Below are positions 16,536 through 40,232 of a DNA stretch of 47,640 bases, in pieces. The notes under the pieces were generated by a model. That model ran no database searches, had not been told where the DNA came from, and worked only from the letters and a program-made list of their open reading frames with translations. Position 1 is the stretch's first letter. Every line of letters starts with the position of its first letter. This stretch comes from Thermoplasmata archaeon. GTDB lineage: Archaea > Thermoplasmatota > Thermoplasmata > Thermoplasmatales > Thermoplasmataceae. The stretch covers positions 1 to 47,640 of the forward strand of contig JAJYEP010000003.1 in the NCBI GenBank assembly GCA_021785735.1, in the 5' to 3' direction. A program made the translations under genes and the position numbers.

Positions 16536-16720
16536 TAGATATTAAATGAAACAAACGATGCAGGAACACGTGAATGTATCAGAAGAACGGATGGGTGATG
16601 ATCGAAGTTCAACTGCATGAGGTCGATACCGCTGGAGAAGCGACGGAGGGTAGTTTATGCAGATTCAAAAAATGTTATTGATCGCTGGAAAACCCAGAAT
16701 GGACACGTCAATATTTTGAC
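16536..16720 (+). repeat. diverged copy A of a ~175-bp repeat ending in a degenerate tRNA-Ala-like repeat
   Basis: Aligns by eye with 24898-25080 (…ATGAAACAAAC.ATG…GTGAATGTAT.AGAAGAAC…TTATGCA.AT.CAAAAAA…TTATTGATC.CTGGAAA…CCAGAATGGACA…). Confidence 0.6.
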
Positions 16721-16769
16721 AACGTCATAATGACTCAATTTTTAATAAGTGAGATTATATTTCTTCAAG

Positions 16770-17456
16770 ATGAGCTACAGACCACATATGTCAGACGAAG
16801 AGATAGATCTCAGGAAGATGTGGCACGAGAAAGCATATGTGAAAATGGACGAACAGAAAACCATCCGGAGGCAATACCTGGGTAGAAAGCTGGTGGTTCC
16901 GAAAGAGGTCACACCGCCAGCATGGATGAGCAAACTTCTTGGCAAGACCATACTGGAGGATATCAGGGAAATCGACCGGGTATTAGACATGGGCACCGGA
17001 AGTGGAATAAATGCGATACTGGCCGCATCTAAATCGCACGATGTGGTAGCTGCTGATGTGAATCCTTACTGCATCGAGGCGGGTAGAAAGAATGCAAGAA
17101 GAAATGGAGTATATTCTAGGATAAAGTTTATTGTAAGCGACTTGTTTCAGAATGTTGATGGAAAGTTCGACCTGATAATATTTGACCCTCCTTTCAGATG
17201 GTTTGCCCCGAGAGATATCAGGGAAAGGGCTACAGCAGACGAGAATTTTAGATCAATGACAGGGTTCTTCAACGATGTACGGGAATATTTGCAGCCCAAT
17301 GGCAGAATTCTGATCGAGTACGGGGATTCAGGGGACAAGAATTATTTTCTGAGCCTGGTAGATGGGGGAGGCTTTAGGAAAGAGCTAATTAAATACAGAT
17401 ACATTGAACGTTACGGAAGAAAGTGGGGATACTACGTCTGGAAGCTTTTTCCTTGA
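16770..17456 (+). CDS. class I SAM-dependent methyltransferase (HemK/PrmC-like)
   Basis: DRVLDMGTGSGINAILAA, VVAADVNPYCIEAGRKN, FDLIIFDPPFRWF; start possibly 16749. Confidence 0.8.
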   Translation: MSYRPHMSDEEIDLRKMWHEKAYVKMDEQKTIRRQYLGRKLVVPKEVTPPAWMSKLLGKTILEDIREIDRVLDMGTGSGINAILAASKSHDVVAADVNPYCIEAGRKNARRNGVYSRIKFIVSDLFQNVDGKFDLIIFDPPFRWFAPRDIRERATADENFRSMTGFFNDVREYLQPNGRILIEYGDSGDKNYFLSLVDGGGFRKELIKYRYIERYGRKWGYYVWKLFP

Positions 17457-17535
17457 AATTTCCTCCGTCCCGAAGAGGCCTAGAATCCCTTGTAATGAGT
17501 TACGTGAAAGTGCAACTATATAATTTTCATAAATA

Positions 17536-17602
17536 ACAAAAAACATCTTTGAACAGGGATTCTGCATGATACAATGCTAAAGTTTCCCATGCGAAACTCA
17601 AG
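17536..17602 (+). repeat. second dispersed repeat, copy 1
   Basis: ACAAAAAACATCTTTGAACAGGGATTCTGCATGATACAATGCTAAAGTTTCCCATGCGAAACTCAAG resembles 18818-18884. Confidence 0.45.
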
Positions 17603-17704
17603 GCGGATCAAATTCCATAACCTTCAGGGCTGGTTTTCCGTTAATCAATAAAACGTGAACTCGGGCACGACGCAAGTATATATATTCACCTCAAATAGGA
17701 AAGC

Positions 17705-18280
17705 ATGCGGAGAGTGATCCTGGACACCATAATCTCCCTGGACGGTTATTACACGAGTCCAAAGAGTGAAATCGATTGGTTCGAATTTGACAGAGAGGAG
17801 ACTGAATGGTCAAAGCAGATTCTTCGAAGAGTTGACGCGATGCTGTACGGTCGAATCACCTATCAGGAATTCAGTGAATTCTGGCCGAAAGCATCCCCAA
17901 GCCCTGACGGATTCGACTCTGAGATCATTGGACAGCTGAATGGACTTCAGAAGGTGGTGTTCTCCCGCACGCTCCCGAAAGCAAAATGGCATCCTGCAGT
18001 GCTGATACGCGAAAACCCGGTGGACGCTGTTGCCGAGCTTAAAAAAGATCCTGGAAAGGACATGGTGATCGTGGGGAGCGGGACTCTCGTATCTGCACTC
18101 GTAAGGAACGAACTGATCGACGAGTACCGCATCCGGATTCGGCCCATCATCCTGGGTGCGGGCAGGCCCCTCTTCGCAGATGATCAAAAGAGGCACAAAC
18201 TCAAATTGATATCTTCCAGAGCGTTTGGTAACGGTGTGGTTGCACTGCATTATGAACCTGCCCACCAGCCGTCCATATAG
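17705..18280 (+). CDS. dihydrofolate reductase / RibD C-terminal-like family protein
   Basis: MRRVILDTIISLDGYYTSPKSEIDWFEFD...VDAMLYGRITYQEF..., typical RibD_C. Confidence 0.85.
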   Translation: MRRVILDTIISLDGYYTSPKSEIDWFEFDREETEWSKQILRRVDAMLYGRITYQEFSEFWPKASPSPDGFDSEIIGQLNGLQKVVFSRTLPKAKWHPAVLIRENPVDAVAELKKDPGKDMVIVGSGTLVSALVRNELIDEYRIRIRPIILGAGRPLFADDQKRHKLKLISSRAFGNGVVALHYEPAHQPSI

Positions 18281-18817
18281 GCTGCCGATGCGCTTTCATG
18301 CTGGAAGAGAGGTTCTCCAGGCGAACTTTTTTCATGGAAGAATTCAAACCTGAGTTCCGCAGTTCAATCTTTTTGAGAATGCATACTTATGTGCTATTTT
18401 ACTTTCTTTTCTGCAGAATTTATGTTCTTTTTGTCCGTGCACCATCAATGAATTTTTTCTGGGTGTGGAATGCTGATCCTGTTGAGGAGATCCAGAACCT
18501 GTTCTGATTCAGACCGGATCATGATGATTACTGATTGAAGAGAAACAGGTGTAAACTTTAATTGCGAAGGAATTCGTACTGTTTCAGAGATTGTAAGTTC
18601 AGTCTTCTTCCCTCATGGATCATGGAAAAACGTACCGAAACAACAATAGAGAGCATACGAAAGTCTCTGAACAGCCTGGATGTTGTTCCGGTTAATGTGG
18701 ATACGAGAAATATATGCATTTCATCGGAGAGCCAGGAAGCCTCTCACATTCTGAAAACACTAGGTCTGCCATATCCCAGAATCCGTGAATGTGCACATAC
18801 ATACCCCCTGATGTTTT

Positions 18818-18884
18818 ACAAAAAACATTGTCATACACGGATTTTGCATGAAACAATGCTAATGTCTGTCATGCGGAAGCCAAG
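18818..18884 (+). repeat. second dispersed repeat, copy 2
   Basis: ACAAAAAACATTGTCATACACGGATTTTGCATGAAACAATGCTAATGTCTGTCATGCGGAAGCCAAG; see 17536-17602. Confidence 0.45.
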
Positions 18885-18918
18885 TTTAAATTGTCATACT
18901 CCCTGATCATAGGAAAGA

Positions 18919-20236: not shown

Positions 20237-20275
20237 TGGATCGGCCGGTATTTGATTGAAGGTATAAGGGAATAC
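20237..20275 (+). repeat. tRNA-Ala-3'-end-derived repeat (copy a)
   Basis: TGGATCGGCCGGTATTTGA (16/19 to tRNA end) + TTGAAGGTATAAGGGAATAC. Confidence 0.65.
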
Positions 20276-20329
20276 TCTGTTTAGAATTCAAAATATTTCA
20301 CAATTCCATTATGAAAAGTAGATCTTTCA

Positions 20330-20710
20330 TTACTGCTTCTGGAGAAATTCTGATCCCGCACGCTTAACTCCAGGTTTATCGTACATATGATCCGAGCTGA
20401 TGATCTCGTCCTCGCAGAGTGAGGCGTGGAATGAGTCGAACAATCCTGCTTTTTCATGTTCTATTGGATGGGCCGCCACAATGGTACAATACTCGCCTGC
20501 ACCGGTCAGCCTGGCAATGAACAGGACGCTGGCAATCATCTCTTCCACATGAACTTCCTTTCTGACTCTAACCAGCGCAAGTTCCACCAGCGTTAGAATG
20601 GACGTGTAAGTTTCTCCTGTATAACTCTCAAGCACCTTTAATGCCCATGAATTCAGCCCATCATCTGAATTGCAAATTGCAACGAGGAATTCTGTATCTG
20701 CGTAAGGCAT
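20330..20710 (-). CDS. PIN-domain protein (VapC-like), antitoxin apparently lost
   Basis: 126 aa; YADTEFLVAICN, SILTLVELALVRV, LFDSFHASLCEDEIISSDHMYD. Confidence 0.65.
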   Translation of the reverse strand: MPYADTEFLVAICNSDDGLNSWALKVLESYTGETYTSILTLVELALVRVRKEVHVEEMIASVLFIARLTGAGEYCTIVAAHPIEHEKAGLFDSFHASLCEDEIISSDHMYDKPGVKRAGSEFLQKQ

Positions 20711-21091
20711 TTCATCCGCTTTCTCTCTCTTCTTTTTTTACCTTGCTCCTCTGTCCGGGTTGATCCGTGCCTTTTCATCCATTCTTGCTTCCTCGATCAT
20801 TTCTGATCAACGACAGATTTCGAATTGATCAATCTTGCAGAAAACCCTCTCAAATATCCCATCGGGATTCCCGGAGATCCCCAAGCAAATGAATGAACGC
20901 CCAGTGAGGGAAAAACTTGAGTATGGTTTATTGAGTTAGTGCTATCTTTCGCACCGTTTATTTTCCATAAACATGCAAGGATCATTCAATTTTGAATTCA
21001 TGCGAAATCCATTCAGTATTAGTTGCATAATGAATGTGCAGGCATCGTCTTTATCTGGGTGAGCACAAAGCCGAAAATATATCAACGTTCT

Positions 21092-21328
21092 TCAGCGATC
21101 AGTCGCCCTTCCCAGATACACAAATTTTGATTTTACCGTCCTGGACGGATCGGGTTCAGGAATCCTGCAGTCACAGTGCCATTTACAGTCCTCAGTTAGT
21201 ACATGTCCTGCAGGCCAGTGGGGCAGGTTCAGGAGTCTGCTCCGTGTGATATGGTGAAGCCAAACAGAATCTCTCATGGCGATCGAATGCCCACAATTTT
21301 TGCACACGCCAAACTGCAGTCTTGCCAT
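21092..21328 (-). CDS. small putative zinc-binding protein
   Basis: MARLQFGVCKNCGHSIAMRDSVWLHH...CKWHCDCRIPEPDP; Cys/His spacing zinc-ribbon-like. Confidence 0.3.
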   Translation of the reverse strand: MARLQFGVCKNCGHSIAMRDSVWLHHITRSRLLNLPHWPAGHVLTEDCKWHCDCRIPEPDPSRTVKSKFVYLGRATDR

Positions 21329-21571
21329 AATCCAATAAGCAAATTCACAGGAATATAAATTTCTGCCTGTTGGGAGAATCCTTGAAAACGGTTGTTTCTT
21401 AAAAACATGAACCGGTCGATATCTTACTGAGGCATCAAGCGGGTTGTGGAGATCAATACACATGTAGCGTCAGGCTGCCGGATATGAGATTGGCGCTCCG
21501 ATTGAGTCCATCTGGGAAATATCCATAAATTGCGGATTCTATGGATGAACTCCAATTGAGGAAACAGCAGG

Positions 21572-22129
21572 CTACTCCTGCAGCGGGTTCCTGAACCAAG
21601 CCAGAATGGCCTCATTTTCACCCCGGAACATACCGTTTTTTCCTATCCCTCTCTTTCCAAGAGATTTAGTAAACATATAGATCGACTTGTTCTGAAGGGT
21701 CACTTTCATGGGTGGTATAAGGCCTCTGGAATCCCTGAATCTTTTGAAAAATTCATCGTATCCCACCGATATGTCAGTAATGGAATCTCTTTTCACCACG
21801 TAAAGTGGGTCCATATTTGGAGTGTAGAAATGCATAGATCCTCCTGAGATTGATAGATAACCTTCATGTTTATGCAGGGGTTTGCCTATCGGTTGTGACG
21901 TATGGGCAGACACCCATCTTTCCCATGCGCCGATGCTGTCAAACTCATCCGAAAATAGCCACAGAGCTTCCAGTAGAAATCCGGCGGATTTAATGACATT
22001 CTCTATATACCTGCTCCTGGGGACGTCTCCCCTGTCCATATCTATGAGCTTTACTATCTTTTCATCCAGGGATATGCTTATCTTCTGGGCCATTGCTCCC
22101 CTCATCCAAATTGTATGATTTTCAAGCAT
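21572..22129 (-). CDS. ribbon-helix-helix N-terminus fused to unknown C-terminal domain
   Basis: MAQKISISLDEKIVKLIDMDRGDVPRSRYIENVIKSA (RHH) + ~130 aa unknown; start may be 22093. Confidence 0.6.
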   Translation of the reverse strand: MLENHTIWMRGAMAQKISISLDEKIVKLIDMDRGDVPRSRYIENVIKSAGFLLEALWLFSDEFDSIGAWERWVSAHTSQPIGKPLHKHEGYLSISGGSMHFYTPNMDPLYVVKRDSITDISVGYDEFFKRFRDSRGLIPPMKVTLQNKSIYMFTKSLGKRGIGKNGMFRGENEAILAWFRNPLQE

Positions 22130-22139
22130 TAATACTTTT

Positions 22140-22151
22140 CCTACTAGTAGG
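22140..22151. promoter_or_regulatory. palindrome CCTACTAGTAGG, candidate operator of the RHH gene
   Basis: Perfect 12-bp palindrome just upstream of 22129. Confidence 0.45.
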
Positions 22152-22357
22152 ATTGTTCATACTTTCAGGTCACCATTACAGTCAGGCAAAGAAGTCCCAT
22201 AACGTCAGGAGTTAGGCGAGAACCTCAGGAATACCATCTGTTTATGACCAATCGGAAGGATTGAAGGCATGTTTCCGCACTTGCAATAACCCCACACTAG
22301 ACCAATGCTTCCGGCAGATATATGGTTCAGAAATAAGGAAGGATATTATTTTTACCC

Positions 22358-22495
22358 ATGCGTCCAGAGGTCGCTGTAAGCCCCATTAGCACCCTTGGAT
22401 GATAATATTCAAGGAGCTTCTGGTAGCTGGTTGAAGCAGCATGGTGAAACTCGTCTATCACTATGTAATCATAATGGAACGGATCAGTTCAATTG
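22358..22495 (-). pseudogene. relic of an SF2 DEAD/DEAH helicase
   Basis: Reverse strand reads DPFHYDYIVIDEFHHAASTSYQKLLEYYHPRVLMGLTATSGRMG (motif II DEFHHA, motif III GLTAT) with an in-frame TGA just upstream. Confidence 0.7.
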
Positions 22496-22848
22496 CCGCG
22501 GAAACGATTTTCATGCCGGCATAGCCCACCGGCAGTCCTTCAGTTCCTGTTCATGATCTCCGATACTGTCCAACTAAGGTTCCTGATAAGTTATCGCGCC
22601 TTTGAGTTACTTCCCGGACCCACTCTCCCTGAATTAGTTTTGAGATTGTGTTACATTTTGTATATGGGAACGTTGCGTGATCGCGTTGAAAGGGATCCTT
22701 CAAGGCTGCTGCTAAACTGGCTAACATTACAACAAAAACAGTCGTTCCTTAAAGGTGACGCATAAACCTGCAGGAAGTGTTGCACCCTTTGCCATGGCCC
22801 CTGTAAGGTGTCTGCATGAGAATCCTGTTCCTGTAATAATATCCGTGA

Positions 22849-24639
22849 TCACTCATATTGGACATTAATGGATTCCAGATCGGATTTCACCTTCTTTCCT
22901 GTTTCTGGGTCCTCGAAGAAAATGTCAGTGCCTTTTATTCCCCGTGTTAGCAATATGTAGTACCTGTTTCTGAGAAGCTCCAAAGCCTTGACCGGGTCAG
23001 TCTTTGATAATCTCTTCAGGGAGTAATGGTTCCCGATTCCGTCTGTTATTGGTTCTCCGTTAACAACCCATCCATTTCTCCAGATAAGGTCCCTCCCCCA
23101 TACCAGCCCAGTGTACAGTGCCTCAAACCCCTGACTACCGTAAACACTGGCACATCTTGATAGTGGATCAATTTTTCCCGACCAGTACCTTGGATACTCA
23201 GTTTTCGGGTCCATTAGCCAGTATATGTCAAGGTCGGTTCCCCTGTAGATATCAAGGTTTGATGCGAGAGGATATCCTATTCTTCTGTTGTCTATGCCTG
23301 TTAGTTCTCTCATATCTCCTTTTGATTCGGTAAAAGCACACATAAGTGCTATCTTCATACCCTGATCGTGAATTTTCCGGAGGTCCCCAAGCATGTCTTT
23401 TATCATATCGAATACTCTTAACCTGTATTCAGAGAACCCCGTTGCTTTTGCACCGTATAACAGATGTCGCACAAACTGCAGGTATGGGACCGGCGATCTG
23501 AAGACGGAGAGGAACTCACGTTTTGTTATGTTTCTGCATGACTTTTCAAAGTTCTCGAAAGTGCCTGCCTCGTCCCCGATCAGTATCTGTTTATCATCAT
23601 AAAAATAGACCTTCACTGTGGATCTGCCCTGGGTGGTTCTGATGACTGACTCCGTCATCCTCTGCGCTTCGTCATAAATGATCAGGTCTATTTTTCCATA
23701 GTTCCGGGCAGGGAAATTCGCCTCGCCTATCCCCGTGCCTTTGCCTGTAGAATAGTAAAGTATTTGTGGAGATAGACTGTACTTTCTATCCTTCGTCTCC
23801 AGTATCTGTTTTAGCGTATTGAGAAGCCTGTTGTTCCTGTATGCCAGGAATACATTGTATCCTTTTAGAAAACTCTCGAGCAGCATATATACTGCAACAA
23901 GGGTCTTTCCAGATCCGCTGCTCCCCTTAACAAGAAACGTTCTATCCTCGTTGCCCTTAACGGCATCCAGCACATCATGGATTAGAAGCGCCTGATTTTC
24001 GGTAAGTCCATAACCTCTTCCAAGCAAAGTTGATGATGCGTTTGAAATAATTTCACTCTTGTTTTGGCTTATCAGTTCAATAAAGTCATCCGATACGTGA
24101 AACTCACCGTTCCTGATCTTATCGACAATAGACTGGCCTTCGGGTCGCCTGAATGCTGCAATCCTGTCCCTTAATTCTCCGAAAGTATGCACGATTTCAC
24201 AGTCTTCAGAAGAGTATGTTCGGTTGTTGTAAAGAAGCAGTGATCCGGAATATTTTATTTCCCGTCCACTGGAATGAAAATAATTGAATTTTGAAACATA
24301 GTTGTTAAGTTGATAGCAGGGATCAAGGCGCAGTTCCCCATCAGCCACGACAACCCTTTCGTCTATTCGTTCAATATTCTTCCATCCCTTTGCCTCAATT
24401 ACCTGCGCAGCATCGGTATCCACTATGACATAGTCTGCCCTTTCAAGGTTGAATATCGGGAATTCAGCAAACGACGGGTAACCGCTTATTATATTGATTA
24501 CCCCTTTTGTAAGCGTTTTCCAGACGCTAACCTGAGAGGCCCCCGGAATCTCGTTTAAATAATCCCTGTATGCGTCAATCAAATCTGCAACGGCTTTTTC
24601 ATCACTTTCGTATTGGTTCAGGAGAAGAGGCAGAGACAC
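22849..24639 (-). CDS. DUF2075 DNA/RNA helicase with N-terminal PD-(D/E)XK-like domain (second, divergent)
   Basis: 596 aa; GSSGSGKT Walker A, DLIIYDEAQRM Walker B, N-terminal DYVIVDTDAAQVIEAKGWKN, C-terminal YGSQGFEALYTGLVWGRDL. Confidence 0.85.
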   Translation of the reverse strand: MSLPLLLNQYESDEKAVADLIDAYRDYLNEIPGASQVSVWKTLTKGVINIISGYPSFAEFPIFNLERADYVIVDTDAAQVIEAKGWKNIERIDERVVVADGELRLDPCYQLNNYVSKFNYFHSSGREIKYSGSLLLYNNRTYSSEDCEIVHTFGELRDRIAAFRRPEGQSIVDKIRNGEFHVSDDFIELISQNKSEIISNASSTLLGRGYGLTENQALLIHDVLDAVKGNEDRTFLVKGSSGSGKTLVAVYMLLESFLKGYNVFLAYRNNRLLNTLKQILETKDRKYSLSPQILYYSTGKGTGIGEANFPARNYGKIDLIIYDEAQRMTESVIRTTQGRSTVKVYFYDDKQILIGDEAGTFENFEKSCRNITKREFLSVFRSPVPYLQFVRHLLYGAKATGFSEYRLRVFDMIKDMLGDLRKIHDQGMKIALMCAFTESKGDMRELTGIDNRRIGYPLASNLDIYRGTDLDIYWLMDPKTEYPRYWSGKIDPLSRCASVYGSQGFEALYTGLVWGRDLIWRNGWVVNGEPITDGIGNHYSLKRLSKTDPVKALELLRNRYYILLTRGIKGTDIFFEDPETGKKVKSDLESINVQYE

Positions 24640-24897
24640 GATAATGTTAAATTACCATTAGAATAATATGTTTTCGTGGTTTCCTAAAATCTTCCCTTTA
24701 ACAGATATCCTTCATATATTCTGTGAAATCAGTCAATTTTACCCGAATAGTTGTGAAACAAGGTCTGCTTCACCACTGATCTTATACGGGATATCAAGAG
24801 ATTCCTGCGGATACTCTTAACAAGCGGTGGACGTACCCTTACAGATCGTAACATTGTGCCATTGACGCAATATAACGGTTTTTCTCTCTACATAGGT

Positions 24898-25080
24898 ATC
24901 AGATATGAAGTGAAACAAACAATGTATGAACAGGTGAATGTATTAGAAGAACTGACGAGCGATGATCCAAGTAAACTGTATGAGGTTGACTCCTCAGAAG
25001 AAGCAATGGAATGTAACTTATGCAAATCAAAAAAAGCTATTGATCACTGGAAAGTCCAGAATGGACAGGCCGGAATCTGA
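24898..25080 (+). repeat. copy B of the ~175-bp repeat, encodes a CxxC fragment
   Basis: Homologous by eye to 16536-16720; ORF ...MECNLCKSKKAIDHWKVQNGQAGI. Confidence 0.6.
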
Positions 25081-25100
25081 TTAATGTATCAGGCTAACAC
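25062..25100 (+). repeat. tRNA-Ala-3'-end-derived repeat (copy b)
   Basis: TGGACAGGCCGGAATCTGA (15/19) + TTAATGTATCAGGCTAACAC. Confidence 0.65.
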
Positions 25101-25208
25101 TGTTCTGGAATTCTCGAATTTCAGGAGCTGCTGTTCAAGGAGTACATTCAATTTATGCATATTCAAGTCAAAAAGGGGGTAATTGCCGAAAAAATGGTGT
25201 TTCGATGC

Positions 25209-25649
25209 CTACAGAGCGGTTTCTATACCGAGTTTCCTTGCTGTTGAATTAAGTTCCTTATCCCCGGAGCAAAACAATGCACTCCCGGCTTCAATACAGG
25301 TTTCAAGCTGAATTGCATCCACAACGTAAACGTGATGTTCGATTACCGTCTTAACCGCTTTCCGGATTACCTGACTGCTTACGGGATAAATTTCGACAGA
25401 GGAGGATCTTTCAAGTGTACCCAGTTCGCTTAACATTGTCTGGAGTCGATCCATGGCGTCAATGCCCATCTTTCTGGAATATTTGTCAAAAACAACTGCC
25501 GCTTCGCCGATATTTATTTCGGATAGACAAACAACAGTCTGCCCCCTGTAAGCCTGACGGAAATAAGTGTCAGCTATTTCACTACCTTCTTCCTTAACAT
25601 ATCTTTTAACCAGTATGCTGGTATCAAGATAGACGCGAGACGCGTTCAT
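25209..25649 (-). CDS. VapC-type PIN-domain toxin
   Basis: 146 aa; YLDTSILVKRYVKEEGSEIAD, SEINIGEAAVVF, HVYVVDAIQLETCI, LFCSGDKELNSTARKLG. Confidence 0.88.
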   Translation of the reverse strand: MNASRVYLDTSILVKRYVKEEGSEIADTYFRQAYRGQTVVCLSEINIGEAAVVFDKYSRKMGIDAMDRLQTMLSELGTLERSSSVEIYPVSSQVIRKAVKTVIEHHVYVVDAIQLETCIEAGSALFCSGDKELNSTARKLGIETAL

Positions 25650-25908
25650 TCCGTAGCTCCCTGACTTGTTTTTCTGAGTAAGCCTTGCCGGAGAGATCAG
25701 GCCTGCGTATCTCTACATTCTCCCCACTAATGTATCCGCATTCAAGATTGAGTTCCCTGCACAGGTCACCAAGGATCTCCATACTGGAAAGGGACCGAAG
25801 TGAGTTTTCGACGTAATCGCTAAGAGTCCTCCCTCTTTTTAACAGGGCCAGTTTTGCATTATCCACTACTGGTTTTTCTACCGATACGGTTATTTTGGTT
25901 TTAACCAT
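25624..25908 (-). CDS. VapB-type antitoxin
   Basis: MVKTKITVSVEKPVVDNAKLALLKRGRTLSDYVENSLRSL; overlaps toxin start. Confidence 0.75.
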   Translation of the reverse strand: MVKTKITVSVEKPVVDNAKLALLKRGRTLSDYVENSLRSLSSMEILGDLCRELNLECGYISGENVEIRRPDLSGKAYSEKQVRELRNERVSRLS

Positions 25909-25912
25909 ACAG

Positions 25913-25924
25913 CCGTATATACGG
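25913..25924. promoter_or_regulatory. palindrome CCGTATATACGG, candidate TA operator
   Basis: Perfect palindrome 4 bp upstream of the antitoxin start (25908). Confidence 0.55.
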
Positions 25925-31062: not shown

Positions 31063-31069
31063 CTCGTTC

Positions 31070-31087
31070 ACACACATATATGTGTGT
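31070..31087. promoter_or_regulatory. 18-bp perfect palindrome ACACACATATATGTGTGT, candidate TA operator
   Basis: 7 bp upstream of the antitoxin start at 31062. Confidence 0.6.
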
Positions 31088-31192
31088 AAAAAATATAAAC
31101 CTTCTTCCGTATCACAATTCAAGACATGCTGATTACTTCCAACTATCCCGAAACAGTCAGCACGTATTCATTGGTAGATACTATCAAAGTCA

Positions 31193-31729
31193 ATGCGACC
31201 TGACATACCAGTCAATGGATCACCAAGTACCTCAATCTCCCCGTACAGTTTGGATAATCCAGTAAGGTATAGGTTCACATCTCTTTGTACCGTTTCTCTT
31301 TCTAAATTAATTGAAAAAGCAAATGAGCAAGATGTGGGTATAAGAACTGACGACCCTTACCTTATGATCCTTCTGCACTCTTCTTACGCATTCCGACGTT
31401 GGCGCAACCACCCGCGATATGATAAAATTTGTCAAAATTTAGATCAACCAGAAATATCCGTCCACAATGTTTCACAATTAGCTATTGCTGCATTCCTACA
31501 AGACTTGGGAAATGGTGTCGCTCTGGCTCCAGAAACCCAGAAAGTCAGGCGCTGTGATTTGTGGATATCCGGTGGTCCATCGAATTTGGTCTCACTGGAA
31601 GTAAAGTCACGCAATGAATTACGAACACTTAAATTTCGGCTTTCTCCGGACTATGCCACCAAAGCGATAAGGGCAACTCTCGATTCAGCTGGCATTCCGG
31701 GGTTAGGTGGTTTTGCACTTAGCTCTTAG
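31193..31729 (+). pseudogene. possible truncated PD-(D/E)XK-like nuclease fragment
   Basis: RRCDLWISGGPSNLVSLEVKSRNELRTL (D..EVK pattern); ends next to IS relic. Confidence 0.35.
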
Positions 31730-31953
31730 GATATTGAAACCATTCTTAGGCAGGCCCGTTTAGAAATGCAGAAACTTGATGACCGGGATCTGAGGCCTTC
31801 CATGCCGAAGGTCTCGTAAGATTCCTTCCAGCGATAGAACATGGTTGGATCTGCCCCGTATTTCCTGCATGTCTCGACAACATGACCCTTATCCTTGATC
31901 TCGCTGATAAGGGCAAGTTTCTCTTCTGCCTTCCAGTGTTTCCGCTCAGACAT
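31726..31953 (-). mobile_element. truncated transposase OrfA-type HTH (IS3-like) relic
   Basis: MSERKHWKAEEKLALISEIKDKGHVVETCRKYGADPTMFYRWKESYETFGMEGLR then loses coding. Confidence 0.7.
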
Positions 31954-32121
31954 TGTTTCCCCCAAACCCCCTTTCCATAATGGTTCTAATATATTTATAG
32001 AGATATAAGCAAATGTTGTCCAATCATTTAAGGGGCCAGTACAGTTATATACAATTCTCTTGTAATTGGACAAATCTTGACTAATAGAGTTGACTTTGGT
32101 TTCATCGCCAGAGAAAACCAG

Positions 32122-32160
32122 TGGACCGGTCGGGATTTGATTAAAGTTTTAAGCGAATAC
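32122..32160 (+). repeat. tRNA-Ala-3'-end-derived repeat (copy h)
   Basis: TGGACCGGTCGGGATTTGA, exact 19/19 match to 40161-40179, + TTAAAGTTTTAAGCGAATAC. Confidence 0.85.
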
Positions 32161-32414
32161 TATGGTTCTCATAAAACCAATGTAAATTCATTTTGTGGTG
32201 AAAACAGAGCATTTGTTACCTTCTATATGGTAGCTTACGGGGTCCTACAACTTCTGAGACCTCAACATATTGGGTTCTTTGGCTGGTGATAAAAGAAATG
32301 AGGTACGTCTCAATCACTCTCTCAAAAAAGAGGTAAGAACTACATAGTCTAACATAATATCACAAGACTTAGAAGAAGTTGTGTGAAATCTACGCCCCAA
32401 TTCTTGAAGGAGTG

Positions 32415-33206
32415 ATGTTGCTTTGGGTTGCACTTGCAATCCCCTTCCTTATATTCGTAATCGTGGATATACGTTCCACTCCAGAGAATCCAATCCTCAA
32501 ACTGGGATTTGTCTTGGTAACAGCCGATACAGGGGTTATAGGAGCTTTCCTTTATGTGGTAGGGTGCAGAGAGCCTTTACCTGGTCTTCACGAACGCTAC
32601 GTTTCTGCAAGGTGGAGACAGGTACTTGAGTCGACTATCCACTGCGTCGCAGGAGATGGCGTAGGCATTCTGGCAGGTGCCGTAATTAGTTCTGTAATAC
32701 ACTTTTCTCCATTTGTTGACGTGGCTATTGAATATTCCATGGGTTTCCTCTTTGGATGGGCGATATTCCAGTCATTGTTCATGCGTGACATGGCAGGTGG
32801 TTCTTACAGGCGTTCTTTAGCTTCGACTTTTATACCGGAACTGCTCTCCATGAATCTGCTGATGACCGCAATGATTCCCATTTCCACTATCTCCCTGGCA
32901 AACCTTCCTGGAGGTCATAACCCGTTAGGAGTGGTGTTCTGGTTTATATTTTCCATGGCTCTCTTGGGAGGATTAGGAATGGCTTACCCAATGAACTGGT
33001 GGCTGGTATCAAGGCATCTTAAGCACGGCATGATTACTGTCAGGCCTAAAACACACGATTCAGAAAGTATGATAAACAAACATACAGATATGCACCACCC
33101 GAAAGAATCTCTTCCTAGTAGGCGGATCATATCGATAATGGCATCCATATCAATTTTGGCGCTAGCCGCAGGAATAACGATTGCATGGTTTTTTGGCGGT
33201 CTGTAA
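32415..33206 (+). CDS. DUF4396-like membrane protein
   Basis: ESTIHCVAGDGVGILAGAV, FLFGWAIFQSLFMRDM, AYPMNWWLVSRHLKHGM. Confidence 0.65.
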   Translation: MLLWVALAIPFLIFVIVDIRSTPENPILKLGFVLVTADTGVIGAFLYVVGCREPLPGLHERYVSARWRQVLESTIHCVAGDGVGILAGAVISSVIHFSPFVDVAIEYSMGFLFGWAIFQSLFMRDMAGGSYRRSLASTFIPELLSMNLLMTAMIPISTISLANLPGGHNPLGVVFWFIFSMALLGGLGMAYPMNWWLVSRHLKHGMITVRPKTHDSESMINKHTDMHHPKESLPSRRIISIMASISILALAAGITIAWFFGGL

Positions 33207-33259
33207 ATGTGTGTTCCAGTATAATAAAAGGTAAAATGTTTGTTTATTTAACCCATTTT

Positions 33260-35368
33260 TCACTGCGAAAGATGAGGCTGCGCCGACTTCGAATACAGGC
33301 GGAGGTCACTTCTTTTCCACTCATTTCTAATTTTTTTTCTAAGCATAAGGGAGTTTATCACCACAGATGATGAACTCATGCCCATTGCAAACGCAGCAAG
33401 TATTGGAAGAACAGAGAAGACAGACAGCCCGAGGAATGGGACCAGCACTCCGCCGGCAATTGGCATCAGAAGTGTGTTGTAGCCCACAGCCCATCCGATG
33501 TTCTGCTTTATCTTTGAAATTGTCTTGGTTCCTATAATCCTGGTCAGTATGAGCTGTCTCAGGTCGTTGTTGATGAGTATAATGTCACCGCTTTCCCTTG
33601 CTATATCCGTACCTGAACCCATTGCAATTCCAACGTCCGCTGTTTCAAGTGCCACAGTGTCATTGATCCCGTCTCCTGTAAACATGACGAAGTCTCCTTT
33701 CATCTGGTATTCCCTGATAATTTCTGATTTGTTCTCCGGAAGAACCTCCGCGTGGATATCATCGATTCCAAGGATGTCGGCGACCCGTTCGGCCTCAGAT
33801 TTTGAATCCCCAGTTACCATGGCAGTCCTTATGCCAAGCTTTTTGAGCTCTTTGACGGTTTCAACTGCACTCTCCCGAACAGTGTATGCAAGCGTTATGT
33901 CGCCCATACTCACACCATCCATGTAAATGGATACCACTGATCCTCCTTTACGACTGGCTCTAGTTATTTTTACCTCCCTGCCATCAACAGTGCCCGATAT
34001 CCCAATACCAGGTATCTCATTGACCTTCTGTGCCCCATCGATCGAAATTGAGGCTTTCTCGGCCTCCTTGATTATGGCCCTGGCTATGGGATGGTTGGAA
34101 GATCTCTCAACAGATGCTGCCATATGCAGCACTTCTTCTTTTGACCACTCTTTTTCTGGGAGGATGTCTGTAATGGCCGGATCTGGTTCCGTGAGTGTGC
34201 CAGTCTTGTCGAATACAGCCATATTGACCTTTGACAGCCTGTCCAGAGCACTGGTATTCTTTATAATTATACCATTCTCGGATGCGTAATTTGACGATAT
34301 GAGTAATGTGATTGGCCCGGCAAGCCCAATGGCGCACGGGCAGGCTATGACTACAACTGAAACAAATGCCAGGACTGCAATTTCCAGGGGAAGGGCAAAT
34401 CCCGTGTTGTTGAGGTAGAAATACCAGAAGAGACCCGAAGCCAGGGCTGCAGCAATCACCACAGGAACAAAAATTGCTGAGAATACGTCTGCAATTCTCT
34501 GTACTTTTGCCCTTCCTGAAATCGCCCTCTGGATCAGTTCATATATCTGGCTGACGGTGCTGTTCTTTCCCGTTCTTGTAACACTGATCTTAAGGACGCC
34601 ATTGAGGTTGGAAGTGCCGGATGAAACCATATCGTCTTTCTTTTTCAATACCGGTTCCTGCTCTCCAGTGAGCATGGATTCATCCACTTCAGCTGAACCG
34701 TCTATGACCGTTCCATCAGCAGGAATGGATTCGCCAGGCCTAATGAGGATAGTACTCCCTTCCTTGAGCTCATCCGTTGGTGTGTCAACTTCCTTTCCAT
34801 CTTCTGTGATCACGTGTGAAACATTTGGAATAAGCTCAAGAAGCTTACTGGCAGCCTTGTTGGCACGAACCTTTGTCAGGTTCTCAATGAAGTTGCCCGT
34901 GAGTATGAGTGTGATTATGAATGCAGACGCGTCAAAGTAGACGTCTGCGGCCGGTATCTTACCCGGGAAAAAAGTAACATAGCTGGAGAATATGAATGCA
35001 GTAAGTGTTCCCATTGAGATCAGGAGGTCCATGTTTCCGGATCTGCTCTTGATAGCATGATATGCTCCTTCGTAGAATCCATATCCAGAGTAAAACTGAA
35101 CCGGAAGAGTCAGCATAAAGAGGGCAATATCCTTGTATGCCTGTCCAAGAAAAAGGCTTCCTGGAACCAGGTAGTTTATGATTATGATTGGTATCGCGAG
35201 ACCCCATCCCACAGAAAGGCGCCTTTTCAGGCGGGTCGCTTCTTTTTCCGGTGAACTGTACTTCTGTTGGCAGGTTTTAGAACAAAAATAGTATGTTTGC
35301 CCGTCGACTACCGACGTCAGATCGGTATCCTCCGGTACAAACATTCCACATACGGGATCAGTTGGCAT
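33260..35368 (-). CDS. copA-like: copper/heavy-metal translocating P1B-type ATPase with N-terminal YHS-like domain
   Basis: CPCAIGLAGP, DKTGTLTEP, SNHPIARAI, GDGINDTVALETADVGIAMGSGTD; N-terminal DPVCGM...YYFCSKTCQQKY. Confidence 0.93.
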   Translation of the reverse strand: MPTDPVCGMFVPEDTDLTSVVDGQTYYFCSKTCQQKYSSPEKEATRLKRRLSVGWGLAIPIIIINYLVPGSLFLGQAYKDIALFMLTLPVQFYSGYGFYEGAYHAIKSRSGNMDLLISMGTLTAFIFSSYVTFFPGKIPAADVYFDASAFIITLILTGNFIENLTKVRANKAASKLLELIPNVSHVITEDGKEVDTPTDELKEGSTILIRPGESIPADGTVIDGSAEVDESMLTGEQEPVLKKKDDMVSSGTSNLNGVLKISVTRTGKNSTVSQIYELIQRAISGRAKVQRIADVFSAIFVPVVIAAALASGLFWYFYLNNTGFALPLEIAVLAFVSVVVIACPCAIGLAGPITLLISSNYASENGIIIKNTSALDRLSKVNMAVFDKTGTLTEPDPAITDILPEKEWSKEEVLHMAASVERSSNHPIARAIIKEAEKASISIDGAQKVNEIPGIGISGTVDGREVKITRASRKGGSVVSIYMDGVSMGDITLAYTVRESAVETVKELKKLGIRTAMVTGDSKSEAERVADILGIDDIHAEVLPENKSEIIREYQMKGDFVMFTGDGINDTVALETADVGIAMGSGTDIARESGDIILINNDLRQLILTRIIGTKTISKIKQNIGWAVGYNTLLMPIAGGVLVPFLGLSVFSVLPILAAFAMGMSSSSVVINSLMLRKKIRNEWKRSDLRLYSKSAQPHLSQ

Positions 35369-35379
35369 TTATATTCTCC

Positions 35380-35520
35380 TTACCTGCTGTATTTCAGGGG
35401 GTTCTTGTCGAATTCTGACTTGCAGTGGCTGCTGCAGAAGTAGAACGTTTTTCCCTGGAACTCACTCTTCAGGTCAGTGCTCTCCTTCACTTTCATTCCG
35501 CATATTACATCTGTTGCCAT
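35380..35520 (-). CDS. YHS-domain small metal-binding protein
   Basis: MATDVICGMKVKESTDLKSEFQGKTFYFCSSHCKSEFDKNPLKY. Confidence 0.8.
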   Translation of the reverse strand: MATDVICGMKVKESTDLKSEFQGKTFYFCSSHCKSEFDKNPLKYSR

Positions 35521-35595
35521 GGTTATGAATTGTGTTGCGATACATATATTATCTCTATCCATAATGTTAAAGTAGTTGAGTAAAATCATTACATT

Positions 35596-36123
35596 ATGAG
35601 AAGAAATCTTTCTGAACTGGAACAGAGACTCATATTATTGCTCAAGAGAAATTCCAGGATGAGTATAGTGGAAATAGCAAGTGAACTGGGCACCAGCAGG
35701 CTTACAGCCAAGAAGGCCCTGGACTCCATAATATCAAGCGGAAGGATCAAGAAATTCACCATCTCCCTTGCAGATGAAGAAAAGGATATGGTTCTTGTAT
35801 ACACTGACAATTTAGAGAACATACCGGGGAATATTATCCTGGAGCGCTTCTCTCTCATAGACGGATCCTACATGGTGATCCTCTACTATGAGGACCTCAT
35901 AAAGATAAAGAAGGCTAACATAAAAAGAGTTGAAATAGCAACCTCCAGAGAATTGTATGAAAACATGAACAGGGCAGAAAACCTCCACTGCGATTACTGC
36001 AGAAAAGAGATCAAAGATAATCCGATCTCAGTTGAAATAAGGGGAAAGACATATTACGTGTGCTGTCCGAACTGTGAGAGAGACCTTAAGAAAAGAGGAG
36101 AATTAAATATCGAGGAAAACTGA
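35596..36123 (+). CDS. HTH + TRASH-domain metal-responsive regulator (CopT/CopR-like)
   Basis: AsnC-like HTH N-terminus; C-terminal CDYCRKEI...KTYYVCCPNCERDL. Confidence 0.8.
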   Translation: MRRNLSELEQRLILLLKRNSRMSIVEIASELGTSRLTAKKALDSIISSGRIKKFTISLADEEKDMVLVYTDNLENIPGNIILERFSLIDGSYMVILYYEDLIKIKKANIKRVEIATSRELYENMNRAENLHCDYCRKEIKDNPISVEIRGKTYYVCCPNCERDLKKRGELNIEEN

Positions 36124-36267
36124 CATTAGCATATACGAACCAAAACATGTTGAAAAGGGCATGGAAGGATTCTACTCAAATTGTTCTCATAGTGTTTAGA
36201 AAATTGGAGCGTTCTGGACAGTTTGGACAGTTATATTATAAATAACTGAGAAGAATTATAATTATCT

Positions 36268-36681
36268 ATGAGTGGGAGAGGAGATTTCACTACCGGGAGG
36301 CATTCGACACCTGGTGCGGTTGATAATGACCCGTCGGTCAAGAATTCCAACACTCCAGAATTAATATCTGTTGGAAAGGGGAAAGTCGAATCGGGAAAAG
36401 GAGTAGTAAAGGCTGCAGAAGGAAAATTTCTTGTCCTGGATTTGATTGAGGAAAAGGGCCCGTGTCCCGATAATATGTGCCAATTGGAAGCTAAAATCAG
36501 TGCAGGAATTCTTGACAGCATCAATGACCCATCCTCATATGAAATAATTAAAACTGAGAAGTTCACTTTTGCCATCAGCAAAGCTGTGTGGCGAGCCATA
36601 GATAAGGGCAGGCAAGACATTTCCATCAGGAAAGGACGATTTGGCAGTCTGATGGTGAAAGGATTCTCACTAACCTATTGA
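36268..36681 (+). CDS. hypothetical protein
   Basis: 137 aa ORF. Confidence 0.5.
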   Translation: MSGRGDFTTGRHSTPGAVDNDPSVKNSNTPELISVGKGKVESGKGVVKAAEGKFLVLDLIEEKGPCPDNMCQLEAKISAGILDSINDPSSYEIIKTEKFTFAISKAVWRAIDKGRQDISIRKGRFGSLMVKGFSLTY

Positions 36682-36769
36682 TAGCTCTTATCATCATGTA
36701 TGTTTTTAGTTACCATAAATTACAAATTGAATAGGGTATTGTTTTATCTCTTCACAAGATTTCGTAAGT

Positions 36770-36961
36770 ATGTCTTGCGGATGTATGAAGAATACAGGAA
36801 ATGAAATGGGAAAGCACCATATGCAAAGCCACGGCAGTGAGGAAAACCCCACAGTGAATGAAACTAAGACTGCAATTGGCATATTGAACGAGAGATATGC
36901 AAGGGGAGAAATCGAGAAGGAAGAATATTTAAGCATGAAGAATGAGATTTTATCCAGGTGA
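36770..36961 (+). CDS. small SHOCT-domain protein
   Basis: C-terminal AIGILNERYARGEIEKEEYLSMKNEIL. Confidence 0.7.
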   Translation: MSCGCMKNTGNEMGKHHMQSHGSEENPTVNETKTAIGILNERYARGEIEKEEYLSMKNEILSR

Positions 36962-37358
36962 AGAAATGGCAACTGAATACAGAGTTAAATCAGAACGTTC
37001 CTTCGACGAGGTGTGCGATAAGATAAGAGAGGTAGTGCCTCTAAATGGTTTCTCAATATTATCTGAGATCAGGACAAGTGACATACTGAGGTCAAAGGGG
37101 TTTGAATATCCAAATCTTAGAACGTTTGATATTTGTAATGCCAAATATGCACATGAGGCTCTTTCCTTCGACAATAGGGTTGAGACACTCATTCCATGCC
37201 ATCTAATAGCAAAATCAGTGGAAGGCGGAACAGAAATATCTGCTCAACTGCCTGCAGAAATTTTCCGCACTCTTCAAACAGACAAGACGGGAAAGAATTC
37301 TGCCTTTCTGGATGAGGTTGAGACTAAACTCAAAACCGTTGTAGACTCATTTATATAA
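36942..37358 (+). CDS. DUF302 family protein
   Basis: 138 aa (likely start MATEYRV); ...NAKYAHEALSFDNRVETLIPCHLIAKSVEGGTEISA. Confidence 0.65.
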   Translation: MRFYPGEEMATEYRVKSERSFDEVCDKIREVVPLNGFSILSEIRTSDILRSKGFEYPNLRTFDICNAKYAHEALSFDNRVETLIPCHLIAKSVEGGTEISAQLPAEIFRTLQTDKTGKNSAFLDEVETKLKTVVDSFI

Positions 37359-37681
37359 TCGTTGAATAGGCTATAGAGTTAAGCAGGAAAGACTGCTTCT
37401 GGAGCACCAGTCTTTTAGTGCAGGGATTGGTTATCATATGGTCTGAAATGCTTTCGCGAGAGAATTTCTATGTGTGACTTTATTCAGATGAGGCAGTAAA
37501 CCATCAGGATGGTTTTATTGTCATTTATGGTAATTGATATCCTTTGAGTTGTTTTTTATAATGTACTCAAGACACTCATTTATTTTCCTGGACATTGCAG
37601 CAATTTGCCATAAAGTGATGGAGTTTACCTTACTTCTTAGTGAGAAAAGTTAGGTAGGCAGTATTGCTACCGCCAGATTAA

Positions 37682-38284
37682 TTAATGTTCTACGACAATT
37701 TTTCCGTACATCCCGTTTTCGGCATGCCCAGGATAGGTACACAGATACCAGTAAGTTCCGGTCTGTGAAAAACTATAGCTGACATTGTAGTAATAGAAGT
37801 GCCCAGAATTTGTTGGTGACAGAAAACTCATAGACGTCATAGAGTTATATCCTCCTGAGCCCATGGAGCCCATGCCACTCATGTACGAATATGGCGGTCC
37901 TTGGCTGCTCAACACAAAATTGTGTTCAGAATCAGTATCGATATTTACCACCGTGAAATGAACAGTCACTCCTTCTTTGATTACTATTGTTGGGTTGTAC
38001 AAACCCTGTATCTCGAAGCTGTACATGCTCGGCGCGTTCATGGGGCCTGCCATAACAAGCAAAGTGGTGGAATTGTTTACATAAATAGTTGAATTCGCCT
38101 GTGAAACATAAACTCCCGGCCCTGTTACATTCAAACTTTCGAGCTGGGACTGCGTCAGGTACTGGGAACTGCTGGATGTATTATATCCACCGTAGTAATA
38201 GAAAGCTGAAAATACAAGCACGGCGGTAAGGAAAGCAACTCCCACAATTCCTATGGTTTTATATTTATTCATAGAAAATTTCAT
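37682..38284 (-). CDS. membrane-anchored blue-copper (cupredoxin/sulfocyanin-like) protein
   Basis: N-terminal TM; H in DSEHNFVLS, C-x4-H-x4-M in LCTYPGHAENGMYGKIVV. Confidence 0.85.
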   Translation of the reverse strand: MKFSMNKYKTIGIVGVAFLTAVLVFSAFYYYGGYNTSSSSQYLTQSQLESLNVTGPGVYVSQANSTIYVNNSTTLLVMAGPMNAPSMYSFEIQGLYNPTIVIKEGVTVHFTVVNIDTDSEHNFVLSSQGPPYSYMSGMGSMGSGGYNSMTSMSFLSPTNSGHFYYYNVSYSFSQTGTYWYLCTYPGHAENGMYGKIVVEH

Positions 38285-38641
38285 CTCCTTATGGTTTCAA
38301 TCATCTGACGGTATTCTGCCTCAGATATTTCTCCCTTTGCGAATCTTTCTTTCGCAATCTCCTCTGCCCTTGCTGTCTGCTCAACAGGTCGGTACGGTTC
38401 CGTGGTTCGAACGGCTTCAAATATGAAATAAATAAACACCAACACCAAGATTACCGATATCACACCAATGATCGGCATTATTATTCCCATACCATAGAAA
38501 CCTCCCATCATTCCGTACGGCCCATATGCTCCATTATAGTATCGGCCTCCGAACAATATGGAAGTTGTTATCGCCACAGCAGCAACCACTGCAACAAGCC
38601 CTACAAGGACCCATATCAGATTTTCAATTCTCCTTTCCATA
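38281..38641 (-). CDS. SHOCT-domain membrane protein
   Basis: two TM segments; AEEIAKERFAKGEISEAEYRQMIETI. Confidence 0.75.
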
Positions 38642-38678
38642 ATGCAATAAATCCTGAAAAAATACTTAATTGTTATCT

Positions 38679-38690
38679 GAAACATGTTTC
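38679..38690. promoter_or_regulatory. palindrome GAAACATGTTTC, candidate operator
   Basis: Perfect 12-bp palindrome between the HTH gene and the SHOCT/cupredoxin operon. Confidence 0.5.
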
Positions 38691-38696
38691 ATGAAA

Positions 38697-39026
38697 CTAT
38701 TTGAAATTGGTTTCAGTGAGGATTATTTCGTTTGTGACTCCCTTTCCCATCCTCACAACCACCCCTTTGTTCTCTAAGGATGTAAGCGTTCTGGATATTG
38801 ATGCCTTTGATGCATCTATTGTGGTCGCTATCTTGCTTTGAAGCATTTTATTTCCATTGGTCTTTATAAGTTCTATGACTTCAAGCTCTAAGTTTGTAAA
38901 GTATTCCGAGTTCACTCTAGTCATTGAAGTAGTGTCACCAGATGGGCGCATCTCATCTGACCTTGATAAGATAATAGTTCGGAATTCTCCATTTTTAGGT
39001 CGTAATATGGGATAAAGCGTCATCAA
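38697..39026 (-). CDS. winged-HTH regulator
   Basis: FTNLELEVIELIKTNGNKMLQSKIATTIDASKASISRTLTSLENKGVVVRMGKG. Confidence 0.75.
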   Translation of the reverse strand: MMTLYPILRPKNGEFRTIILSRSDEMRPSGDTTSMTRVNSEYFTNLELEVIELIKTNGNKMLQSKIATTIDASKASISRTLTSLENKGVVVRMGKGVTNEIILTETNFK

Positions 39027-39256
39027 CCCTTTAACGGAAAGTGCAGAAATTGCAAGTTAACTATTATAATCCCTGTAAAAAGGTAGAAAAAATTTTCAGT
39101 CACCCTGCCATCAAGGTAAACAACAACCACAAAAAATGTTATCGAGATGACTATGATAAGGAGAGAGAGCAACAGGGAGATACCGTAGAATATAAGCCGT
39201 CTTATACCCTGTGGTCCTCCGGACGCTGGGAATGCAGAATCTGTGCTCCTTCTCAT
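39023..39256 (-). CDS. small two-TM membrane protein
   Basis: MRRSTDSAFPASGGPQGIRRLIFYGISLLLSLLIIVISITFFVVVVYLDG... Confidence 0.5.
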   Translation of the reverse strand: MRRSTDSAFPASGGPQGIRRLIFYGISLLLSLLIIVISITFFVVVVYLDGRVTENFFYLFTGIIIVNLQFLHFPLKG

Positions 39257-39276
39257 CGATCGATATACTCTATGAT

Positions 39277-39987
39277 TTATTGGACATAAACTGTCCCTGT
39301 CATCCAGCCAGCAGTGGACATTGCACCTCCCCATCCTGATGAACCTGTGCCACAAGCAGCCTCGCATTGCCAGGTCATGCTTCCGGTGCTGTTAAGATAA
39401 AATGATGCGATTTCAGTGTATCCCGCCATGACAGGAATGTTAACAATGGTGCTTGATCCTTGTAAGATGGTAAAAGTATGCAATACTTTTGATGCAGGGA
39501 ATGATGTCATATTAGTTGACCAGGACTCTGAAGTATTGCTTCCCATAGCGGTAGTGCCGTTTATTGCAAGGACCTTGTCATTCAGTATTCCACTGGCTGT
39601 CAAATACTGCGATGGTACAGAGGCATTACCCATATCATACGATGTGATGGTGACAGTTATCTTGGTGTGTGTAGGCAGCGTAATATTAGAAGTGGACTGA
39701 AGAGAACCATTCACAACCTCATAGTACCTGGGTTGAGCTCCAACTGAACTGTTGTAATTTGCGTCCATGACTTCTATCAAATCAAGGTGATATGCGCCAA
39801 TCATCTGCTGATTACTACTATGGCTACTGATAACAGCGACCTGATGGTCATAAGCAACACCAATCCCAACTCCTCCTATAATCACTATCGCGGAAACAAT
39901 GGCGTAGAAAACCTTTTCCTGCATAATGAAAGAATGGTTGAGAAATCTTAAAAGTTCCCTTATCACAATGCAAAGGAATTGCATCAT
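39277..39987 (-). CDS. membrane-anchored cupredoxin-like protein
   Basis: N-terminal TM; H in KVLHTFTI; C-terminal MTWQCEAACGTGSSGWGGAMSTAGWMTGTVYV (CuA-like Cys pair). Confidence 0.65.
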   Translation of the reverse strand: MMQFLCIVIRELLRFLNHSFIMQEKVFYAIVSAIVIIGGVGIGVAYDHQVAVISSHSSNQQMIGAYHLDLIEVMDANYNSSVGAQPRYYEVVNGSLQSTSNITLPTHTKITVTITSYDMGNASVPSQYLTASGILNDKVLAINGTTAMGSNTSESWSTNMTSFPASKVLHTFTILQGSSTIVNIPVMAGYTEIASFYLNSTGSMTWQCEAACGTGSSGWGGAMSTAGWMTGTVYVQ

Positions 39988-40160
39988 GACTGTTCATAAT
40001 GTATAATAAACGATCAGGAAAGATTATTGTGTACTTTTCAGCACCAGAATCCTGATGGGAAAAATCAGGATTGCGAGGTTCATCGCGTTGAAACTCCCAT
40101 TACTTGTTGTGTTTAAGGTGTGGTTTTTATCGTCTTCCTCAGGGTTTGGAAAGAAAAAAA

Positions 40161-40232
40161 TGGACCGGTCGGGATTTGAACCCGAGACCTCCTGCTTGCG
40201 AAGCAGGCGATCTACCGCTGATCTACCGGCCC
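40161..40232 (-). tRNA. tRNA-Ala (anticodon CGC)
   Basis: GGGCCGGTAGATCAGCGGTAGATCGCCTGCTTCGCAAGCAGGAGGTCTCGGGTTCAAATCCCGACCGGTCCA; full cloverleaf, G3:U70 identity pair, A73. Confidence 0.95.

Follow-up and report, generated by a model that had tools for sequence, protein, structure and literature searches.

The contig JAJYEP010000003.1 of a Thermoplasmata archaeon (assembly GCA_021785735.1), analysed here over its whole 47,640 nt and referred to as the window, carries an island of direct repeats on the 3' side of a tRNA-Ala(CGC) gene. This locus is likely to be a tRNA-anchored cassette array, in which non-autonomous cassettes were stacked at tRNA-Ala by a plasmid-borne integrase acting in trans. 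The window corresponds to contig C5 in full, from an assembly of 1.17 Mb and 77% completeness. The structure of the site, its orientation, its linkage to the tRNA and the integrase beside the site in relatives are established at the level of sequence, and we infer in addition that a 430-aa integrase moves the cassettes, that a circular intermediate is involved and that toxin-antitoxin genes stabilise the array. The original prediction, made from the window alone, had proposed cassette accretion at the tRNA; this interpretation is supported and extends beyond the window.

All eight repeat copies that had been predicted within 20237-32161 are real, located on the plus strand and placed in intergenic gaps. 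Their length is 40 nt instead of the proposed ~39 bp, and the first 19 nt are indeed the complement of the tRNA-Ala(CGC) 3' end (A73, acceptor strand and T-arm), followed at positions 20-40 by a separate 21-nt non-tRNA arm, TTAAWGTTTTAAGSGAATACT. The 19-mer TGGACCGGTCGGGATTTGA occurs 6 times in the window with up to 3 mismatches, compared with 0.01 occurrences expected from shuffles. Sharp repeat edges were seen in a logo built with 72 copies from a number of genomes, with low information before position -4 and after +40 and ~1-2 bits at most positions between. The left flank had seemed able to pair with the core as a hairpin in several window copies, a reading that was rejected as the pairing was gone in the 72-copy alignment. 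The tRNA and the attachment (att) repeats are listed below, with core matches that agree with the predicted counts.

40161..40232, minus strand: tRNA-Ala(CGC), the insertion target (ARAGORN, Rfam RF00005), also located beside the arrays of other genomes
40161-40179, minus strand: att core, the 3'-terminal 19 nt of tRNA-Ala(CGC), part of the tRNA gene
32122..32161, plus strand: att repeat, rank 1 from the tRNA, core 19/19
30377..30416, plus strand: att repeat, rank 2, core 18/19, arm decayed
29623..29662, plus strand: att repeat, rank 3, core 13/19, arm almost intact
28912..28951, plus strand: att repeat, rank 4, core 18/19
28084..28123, plus strand: att repeat, rank 5, core 16/19
26053..26092, plus strand: att repeat, rank 6, core 14/19
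25062..25101, plus strand: att repeat, rank 7, core 15/19
20237..20276, plus strand: att repeat, rank 8, core 16/19
16700..16719, plus strand: probable decayed att core

The last of these, predicted as a ninth degenerate copy, fell under the profile cut-off in the weight-matrix scan, but a decayed site is plausible because the 169 bp directly to its left (16537-16705) are 80% identical to 24901-25067, the module end left of 25062. As each part of this direct repeat lies immediately left of a site, it can be described as two cassettes with related ends. No more repeat copies were found elsewhere in the 77%-complete assembly of the window organism.

The survey of relatives covered 25 stretches from 17 related Thermoplasmata genomes (numbered with G), in which the weight-matrix scan yielded 112 sites on the expected strand and 0 on the opposite strand. 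Wherever the tRNA is in view, it is tRNA-Ala(CGC) or tRNA-Ala(TGC), and the sites lie beyond its 3' end in one orientation relative to it, which is the placement predicted for the window. In complete genomes nearly all sites sit in islands 3' of these two tRNAs in a single orientation, and the genome-wide scatter named beforehand as contrary to the prediction was limited to a few orphans (G018:1348239, G018:1582369 and G013:183104). The first orphan (G018:C1:1348239, L149) has a diverged core and lies ~7 kb on the 3' side of tRNA-Val, away from tRNA-Ala. The Ala(GGC) isoacceptor, with a different T-stem and acceptor junction, had no array in the stretches examined. With a profile built from the eight copies, arrays were found in most genomes of the same family and in few from other families of the order. 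According to contig titles, an exact-pattern scan hit metagenome-assembled genomes of Thermoplasmata/Thermoplasmatales (including I-plasma and E-plasma), Acidiplasma aeolicum, the uncultured clone ASS_A1 and one Micrarchaeota-labelled bin, while a search of viral_contigs for a virus-borne or free form did not find the exact site. A metagenome-assembled genome labelled Candidatus Micrarchaeota (L104) has an att site together with sequence related to the integrase (int) end of the plasmids described below, pointing to either host-symbiont transfer or misbinning. In the congeneric G001, both tRNA-Ala contigs (C18 end and C14 end) break off 1 nt past the tRNA, which would be expected of a 3' side that is repeated or that differs within the population. 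Truncated 3' parts of tRNA-Ala were also observed in or near islands at G013:C1:908134 (L041:13135), G017:C11:13440-13484 and G029:C9:1254-1297, with ~44 nt in the latter two, which suggests a second integrase class cutting the same tRNA nearer the anticodon.

The mobility of single units was approached by chaining homologous stretches between arrays and comparing the chain ends with the sites, with shifted sites in 1000 rounds as the null; G024:C149 was excluded because it is possibly misbinned. Chains ended at a site in both partners in 45/218 cases on the left and 45/218 on the right, compared with averages of 0.08 and 0.10 under the null, whose maxima over the 1000 rounds were 3 and 2. Homologous modules in different genera start and stop at the repeats. 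For instance, a 2.0-kb unit is common to G010, G013 and G016, the 709-711 bp VapBC unit at window 28952..29622 recurs in G010, G016 and G021, and the whole unit at 28124..28911, which follows the 28084 repeat, is also present in G028, with a homologous unit in G021. Compact two-gene units with both ends intact recur across genera in three size classes (709-711, 721-723 and 802-805 bp). One 1140-bp cassette, running from repeat to repeat, sets G048 and G045 of the same genus apart; without it they are collinear over 4.37 kb at 95.2% identity. One G013 array contains two copies of an 820-bp cassette that are 99% identical and have exact ends. Indel and homology ends in related genomes therefore coincide with the repeats, a point left to be checked by the original prediction. 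By sequence comparison, the cassette units are mobile across genera, with a one-cassette indel and an intra-array duplication.

Stacking at the tRNA is suggested by cassettes that adjoin the tRNA in one genome and are internal in another, with homology stopping at core position 19. In G010, G013 and G014 the int-side arm directly abuts the tRNA. G025 instead has, behind tRNA-Ala(TGC), a two-gene cassette of 1.2 kb that brings its own arm, and only after it come a core copy, the int-side arm and an int pseudogene. The comparison of these sequences provides what may be called a near-direct before/after view of stacking. Sites that rank farther out tend to have more core mismatches (pooled rho 0.41, p 0.001, for 61 sites, those within an array not being independent), and this outward decay is a statistical trend with common exceptions instead of an ordered series. 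The predicted decay from serial insertion at the tRNA is retained as such a trend, but insertion is not always at the tRNA, as the cassette by which G045 and G048 differ occupies the second position of the array, not next to the tRNA.

The absence of an integrase was rightly predicted for the window, but the locus type is not integrase-less, since relatives have a tyrosine integrase 49-50 nt from the same tRNA. In G014, the 430-aa gene starts 49 nt after tRNA-Ala(CGC), and in many relatives the int gene starts 49-50 nt behind tRNA-Ala and is whole beside it; int pseudogenes occur in G025, G004 and G018. The protein had no Pfam match (none to PF00589 at E 0.01); NCBIfam gave a partial match to XerA (7e-9) and PHROG one to an integrase (6e-5), and a 28-member profile matched Pyrococcus abyssi XerA at 2.5e-5. 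The residues R152, K196, Y270xxR273, H300 and Y308 are invariant among the 28 homologues. Structure modelling from 8 close sequences gave a useless predicted local distance difference test score (pLDDT) of 48, while 28 sequences raised it to 82, and this model matched archaeal XerA structures best and Cre and IntI structures as well, with modest template modelling scores (~0.5 or below) probably caused by domain arrangement. The invariant residues fit the R...YxxR...Y signature by which pNOB8-type integrases are defined (PMC8371274), seen here in homologues from relatives and not in the window, and the protein is predicted to be a tyrosine recombinase of pNOB8-like signature.

In relatives, int heads plasmid-like elements of 19-21 kb with genes for ParA and a HerA/VirB4-like ATPase. 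The sequence TTTAATYTATTAATCGAATACT between the tRNA and int is an inverted relative of the repeat arm (16/21 positions, by eye), and therefore the plasmid site reads as arm-core-arm. Paralogous integrases of 430-450 aa (L129-L148, e.g. L130, L131, L132, L134 and L135) were observed behind tRNA-Val, -Leu, -Cys and -Pro at distances of 48-61 nt, with 40-74% identity, and in most of their att regions a TAAtCGAATAC-like motif occupies the corresponding position. It therefore seems that the arm goes with the integrase family and the core with the target tRNA, and the integrases at different tRNAs apparently represent one lineage that switched targets. Near the paralogues at tRNA-Val, -Pro and -Cys of G014, single or no candidate sites and no arrays were found. 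The 21-kb int plasmid of G014 (G014:C1:56324-77571; L057, L039) contains a copper-rusticyanin block together with genes for ParA, a resolvase, a MerA-like reductase and an Orc1/Cdc6-like protein, and is probably genomic island 1 of Cuniculiplasma divulgatum S5 in PMC5155288.

In the proposed mechanism, the 3' end of tRNA-Ala(CGC or TGC) would serve as the landing site (attB) for the 430-aa tyrosine integrase encoded on the 19-21 kb integrative plasmids that target the same tRNA, whose att form would be inverted arm, 19-nt tRNA 3' end and arm TTAAWGTTTTAAGSGAATACT. Each integration would restore the tRNA, with a 19-nt core and its arm remaining at the distal end. Small modules of 0.4-8 kb, typically one toxin-antitoxin operon, with a single core-plus-arm site would be non-autonomous passengers, which might leave as circles formed between two direct sites and enter again at the tRNA, in some cases at a different site, through the integrase supplied in trans. 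Repeated insertion would enlarge the array while its outer sites decay. Toxin-antitoxin cassettes would make cassette loss costly and therefore may stabilise the array, by analogy with superintegrons (PMC11551772).

Several observations weigh against this mechanism. No integrase copy was found in the window or in the 77%-complete assembly of its organism, a result in which the PF00589 negative is not readable as absence of a recombinase because PF00589 misses the 430-aa family. A second, inverted arm is present in the int plasmids, while the small cassettes bear a single one. The exchange point differs between events, lying at core position 7 or earlier for G048/G045 and at the core/arm border for the G013 duplication, and a pooled comparison gave nothing above background (identity 0.77 in the core and 0.74 in the arm). 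The copper unit of the window equals the cargo end of the 21-kb G014 int plasmid, no site lying in between, and it may have arisen by deletion from such a plasmid instead of being an independent cassette. This equality, the 1.3 kb lost internally from the MarR interval and the int pseudogenes in G025, G004 and G018 would all fit modules that are immobile by themselves, namely remnants of whole integrative plasmids inserted serially at tRNA-Ala and worn by deletion to att-proximal cargo. Such an origin is unlikely, in view of the intact-ended two-gene units recurring across genera in the size classes given above, the 99% duplicate with exact ends inside one array and the clean single-cassette indel, as repeated exact ends are not expected from random deletion.

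The different exchange points within the site and the indel away from the tRNA would also be compatible with shuffling by homologous recombination between the 40-bp repeats without an integrase. This is quite improbable, as the sites are only ~75% identical mutually and hence poor substrates, joining to the tRNA offers only 19 nt in common, and an integrase with a matching arm adjoins the tRNA. Modules driven by the chromosomal XerA, with the arm palindrome ATTYGMTTAA-WGTT-TTAAGSGAAT as a dif-like site in the manner of Acinetobacter pdif, are regarded as highly improbable: the palindrome is missing from the XerA-bearing, array-less genomes G001, G007 and G027 and is therefore not dif, and the arm motif is found beside tRNA-specific integrases. 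The site is partly palindromic, one G014 copy having fully palindromic arms, and XerA was the sole PF00589 enzyme found in the array-bearing G015 and G016, but both have homologues of the 430-aa integrase that Pfam misses. A true integron with IntI and attC sites is almost certainly not present, in spite of the single-operon cassettes arranged in a direct-repeat array that is rich in toxin-antitoxin genes and grows at one end beside an integrase. R-box pairs resembling those of attC were detected at 0/91 sites, the site is 40 nt long and conserved in sequence, and the integrase lacks a PF00589 match at E 0.01. Gene orientation in the cassettes is mixed, which together with the attC result bears out the predicted departure from classic integrons.

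The intervals of the window (no strand assigned) and the conserved neighbour beyond the tRNA are as follows.

40412..41974, plus strand: conserved chromosomal neighbour, DEAD/Hef-type helicase (type judged from sequence)
32162..40160: 8-kb cassette with DUF4396, P-type Cu ATPase, YHS protein, rusticyanin (match 9.6e-70), SHOCT protein and others
30417..32121: cassette with VapBC (30434-31122), an open reading frame and a transposase helix-turn-helix relic (31193-32073)
29663..30376: cassette remnant with a MarR gene (29787-30170)
28952..29622: cassette with VapBC (29029-29615)
28124..28911: cassette with a VapBC-type pair (28250-28857)
26093..28083: cassette with Fic (26311-27213) and a TPR protein (27282-27767); relatives in G010, G016, G017 and G018
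25102..26052: cassette with VapBC (25209-25947); relatives in G013, G014 and G017
20277..25061: composite interval with a PIN protein, small open reading frames and a Schlafen group 3 helicase (22849-24639)

The helicase gene at 40412..41974 marks the tRNA-Ala(CGC) locus across genera. One functional unit per interval, as predicted, is mostly found, with the exception of the 8-kb tRNA-proximal interval, the several genes in 20237-25061 and the MarR interval. Compared with G024:C149 (L053), the latter is short of ~1.3 kb at 29717-29723, comprising a 159-aa open reading frame and the MarR start, and short sequence similarity occurs at the breakpoint; the interval after 29623 is, as read from this alignment, a cassette decayed by internal deletion. 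G024:C149, binned in another genus, is 99.85% identical to window 13248-29723 (16.5 kb), reflecting recent transfer or misbinning. The copper-rusticyanin unit is located in tRNA-Ala(TGC) islands in G013 and G014 and at tRNA-Ala(CGC) in the window, with homology starting exactly at the repeat. Most small cassettes (<= ~2.1 kb) encode toxin-antitoxin pairs; their 104 proteins matched PIN (21), the ribbon-helix-helix-like DUF7557 (21), VapB (13) and ParE (11), where one protein can match two families. In the composite outer interval, the Schlafen group 3 helicase carries an N-terminal extension and is a defence candidate.

The wider proposal is somewhat favoured that these arrays are an archaeal analogue of integrons, with a tRNA gene as the primary insertion site, a plasmid-borne tRNA-specific integrase as the recombinase and a 40-bp tRNA-derived site as the cassette site, through which many acidophilic Thermoplasmata genera would share single-operon cassettes for toxin-antitoxin, defence and metal functions; the integrase would be one of a larger family addressed to tRNAs. 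The array may explain the spread of toxin-antitoxin and metal genes among acid mine drainage archaea, and it would represent an evolutionary route to integron-like cassette capture using neither attC nor IntI. Cuniculiplasma and other acidophilic archaea are reported to carry genomic islands with toxin-antitoxin, rusticyanin and metal genes, and the accessible parts of these reports (PMC5155288, PMC12302457) do not describe the present repeats or cassettes, in a search that left subscription literature mostly outside.

Additive flexible genomic islands at tRNA genes are known in bacteria, including Alteromonas (PMC4119200), Ca. Actinomarinales (PMC7771536) and Methylophilaceae (PMC10872708), where the repeat is 20 nt of tRNA-Lys. 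These islands share with the present arrays a tRNA gene targeted by cassettes, direct repeats of the tRNA 3' end, growth at the tRNA and cassettes present or absent between related strains, represented here by the G048/G045 indel and the chain-end test. The arrays described here differ in the archaeal host, the conserved 21-nt non-tRNA arm in the repeat, the identification of a probable dedicated integrase with tRNA-specific paralogues, and the prevalence of single toxin-antitoxin operons common across genera. Additive islands have been described mainly by content, whereas here the site, the likely recombinase and the mobile unit can be named. Tycheposons, as described in PMC10872708, are likewise tRNA-bordered islands with a tyrosine recombinase and cargo, in contrast to which most units here are <2.1 kb, single-module and integrase-free.

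The plasmids of the relatives resemble pNOB8-type integrative plasmids (PMC8371274) in the R...YxxR...Y integrase, the gene left intact beside the tRNA after integration, and the ParA, Orc1/Cdc6-like and HerA/VirB4-like ATPase genes, but are distinguished by inverted 21-nt arms around the tRNA core and by passive small cassettes that use the same att site and form long arrays. Acinetobacter dif modules (PMC6449649) are also small and discrete, some with toxin-antitoxin genes, and depend on a recombinase encoded elsewhere; unlike those pdif (plasmid XerCD) sites, the sites here are all direct, tRNA-linked and matched to a dedicated integrase. Archaeal integrons (PMC9668308) and superintegrons (PMC11551772) have in common with these arrays the location beside an integrase, cassette indels and duplications and many toxin-antitoxin cassettes, while the present system has no attC, a functional tRNA gene as primary site, mixed orientation and probably a different integrase. 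What is probably new is therefore an archaeal additive tRNA island with a defined site, a probable integrase and single-operon units, integron-like in its working without being an integron.

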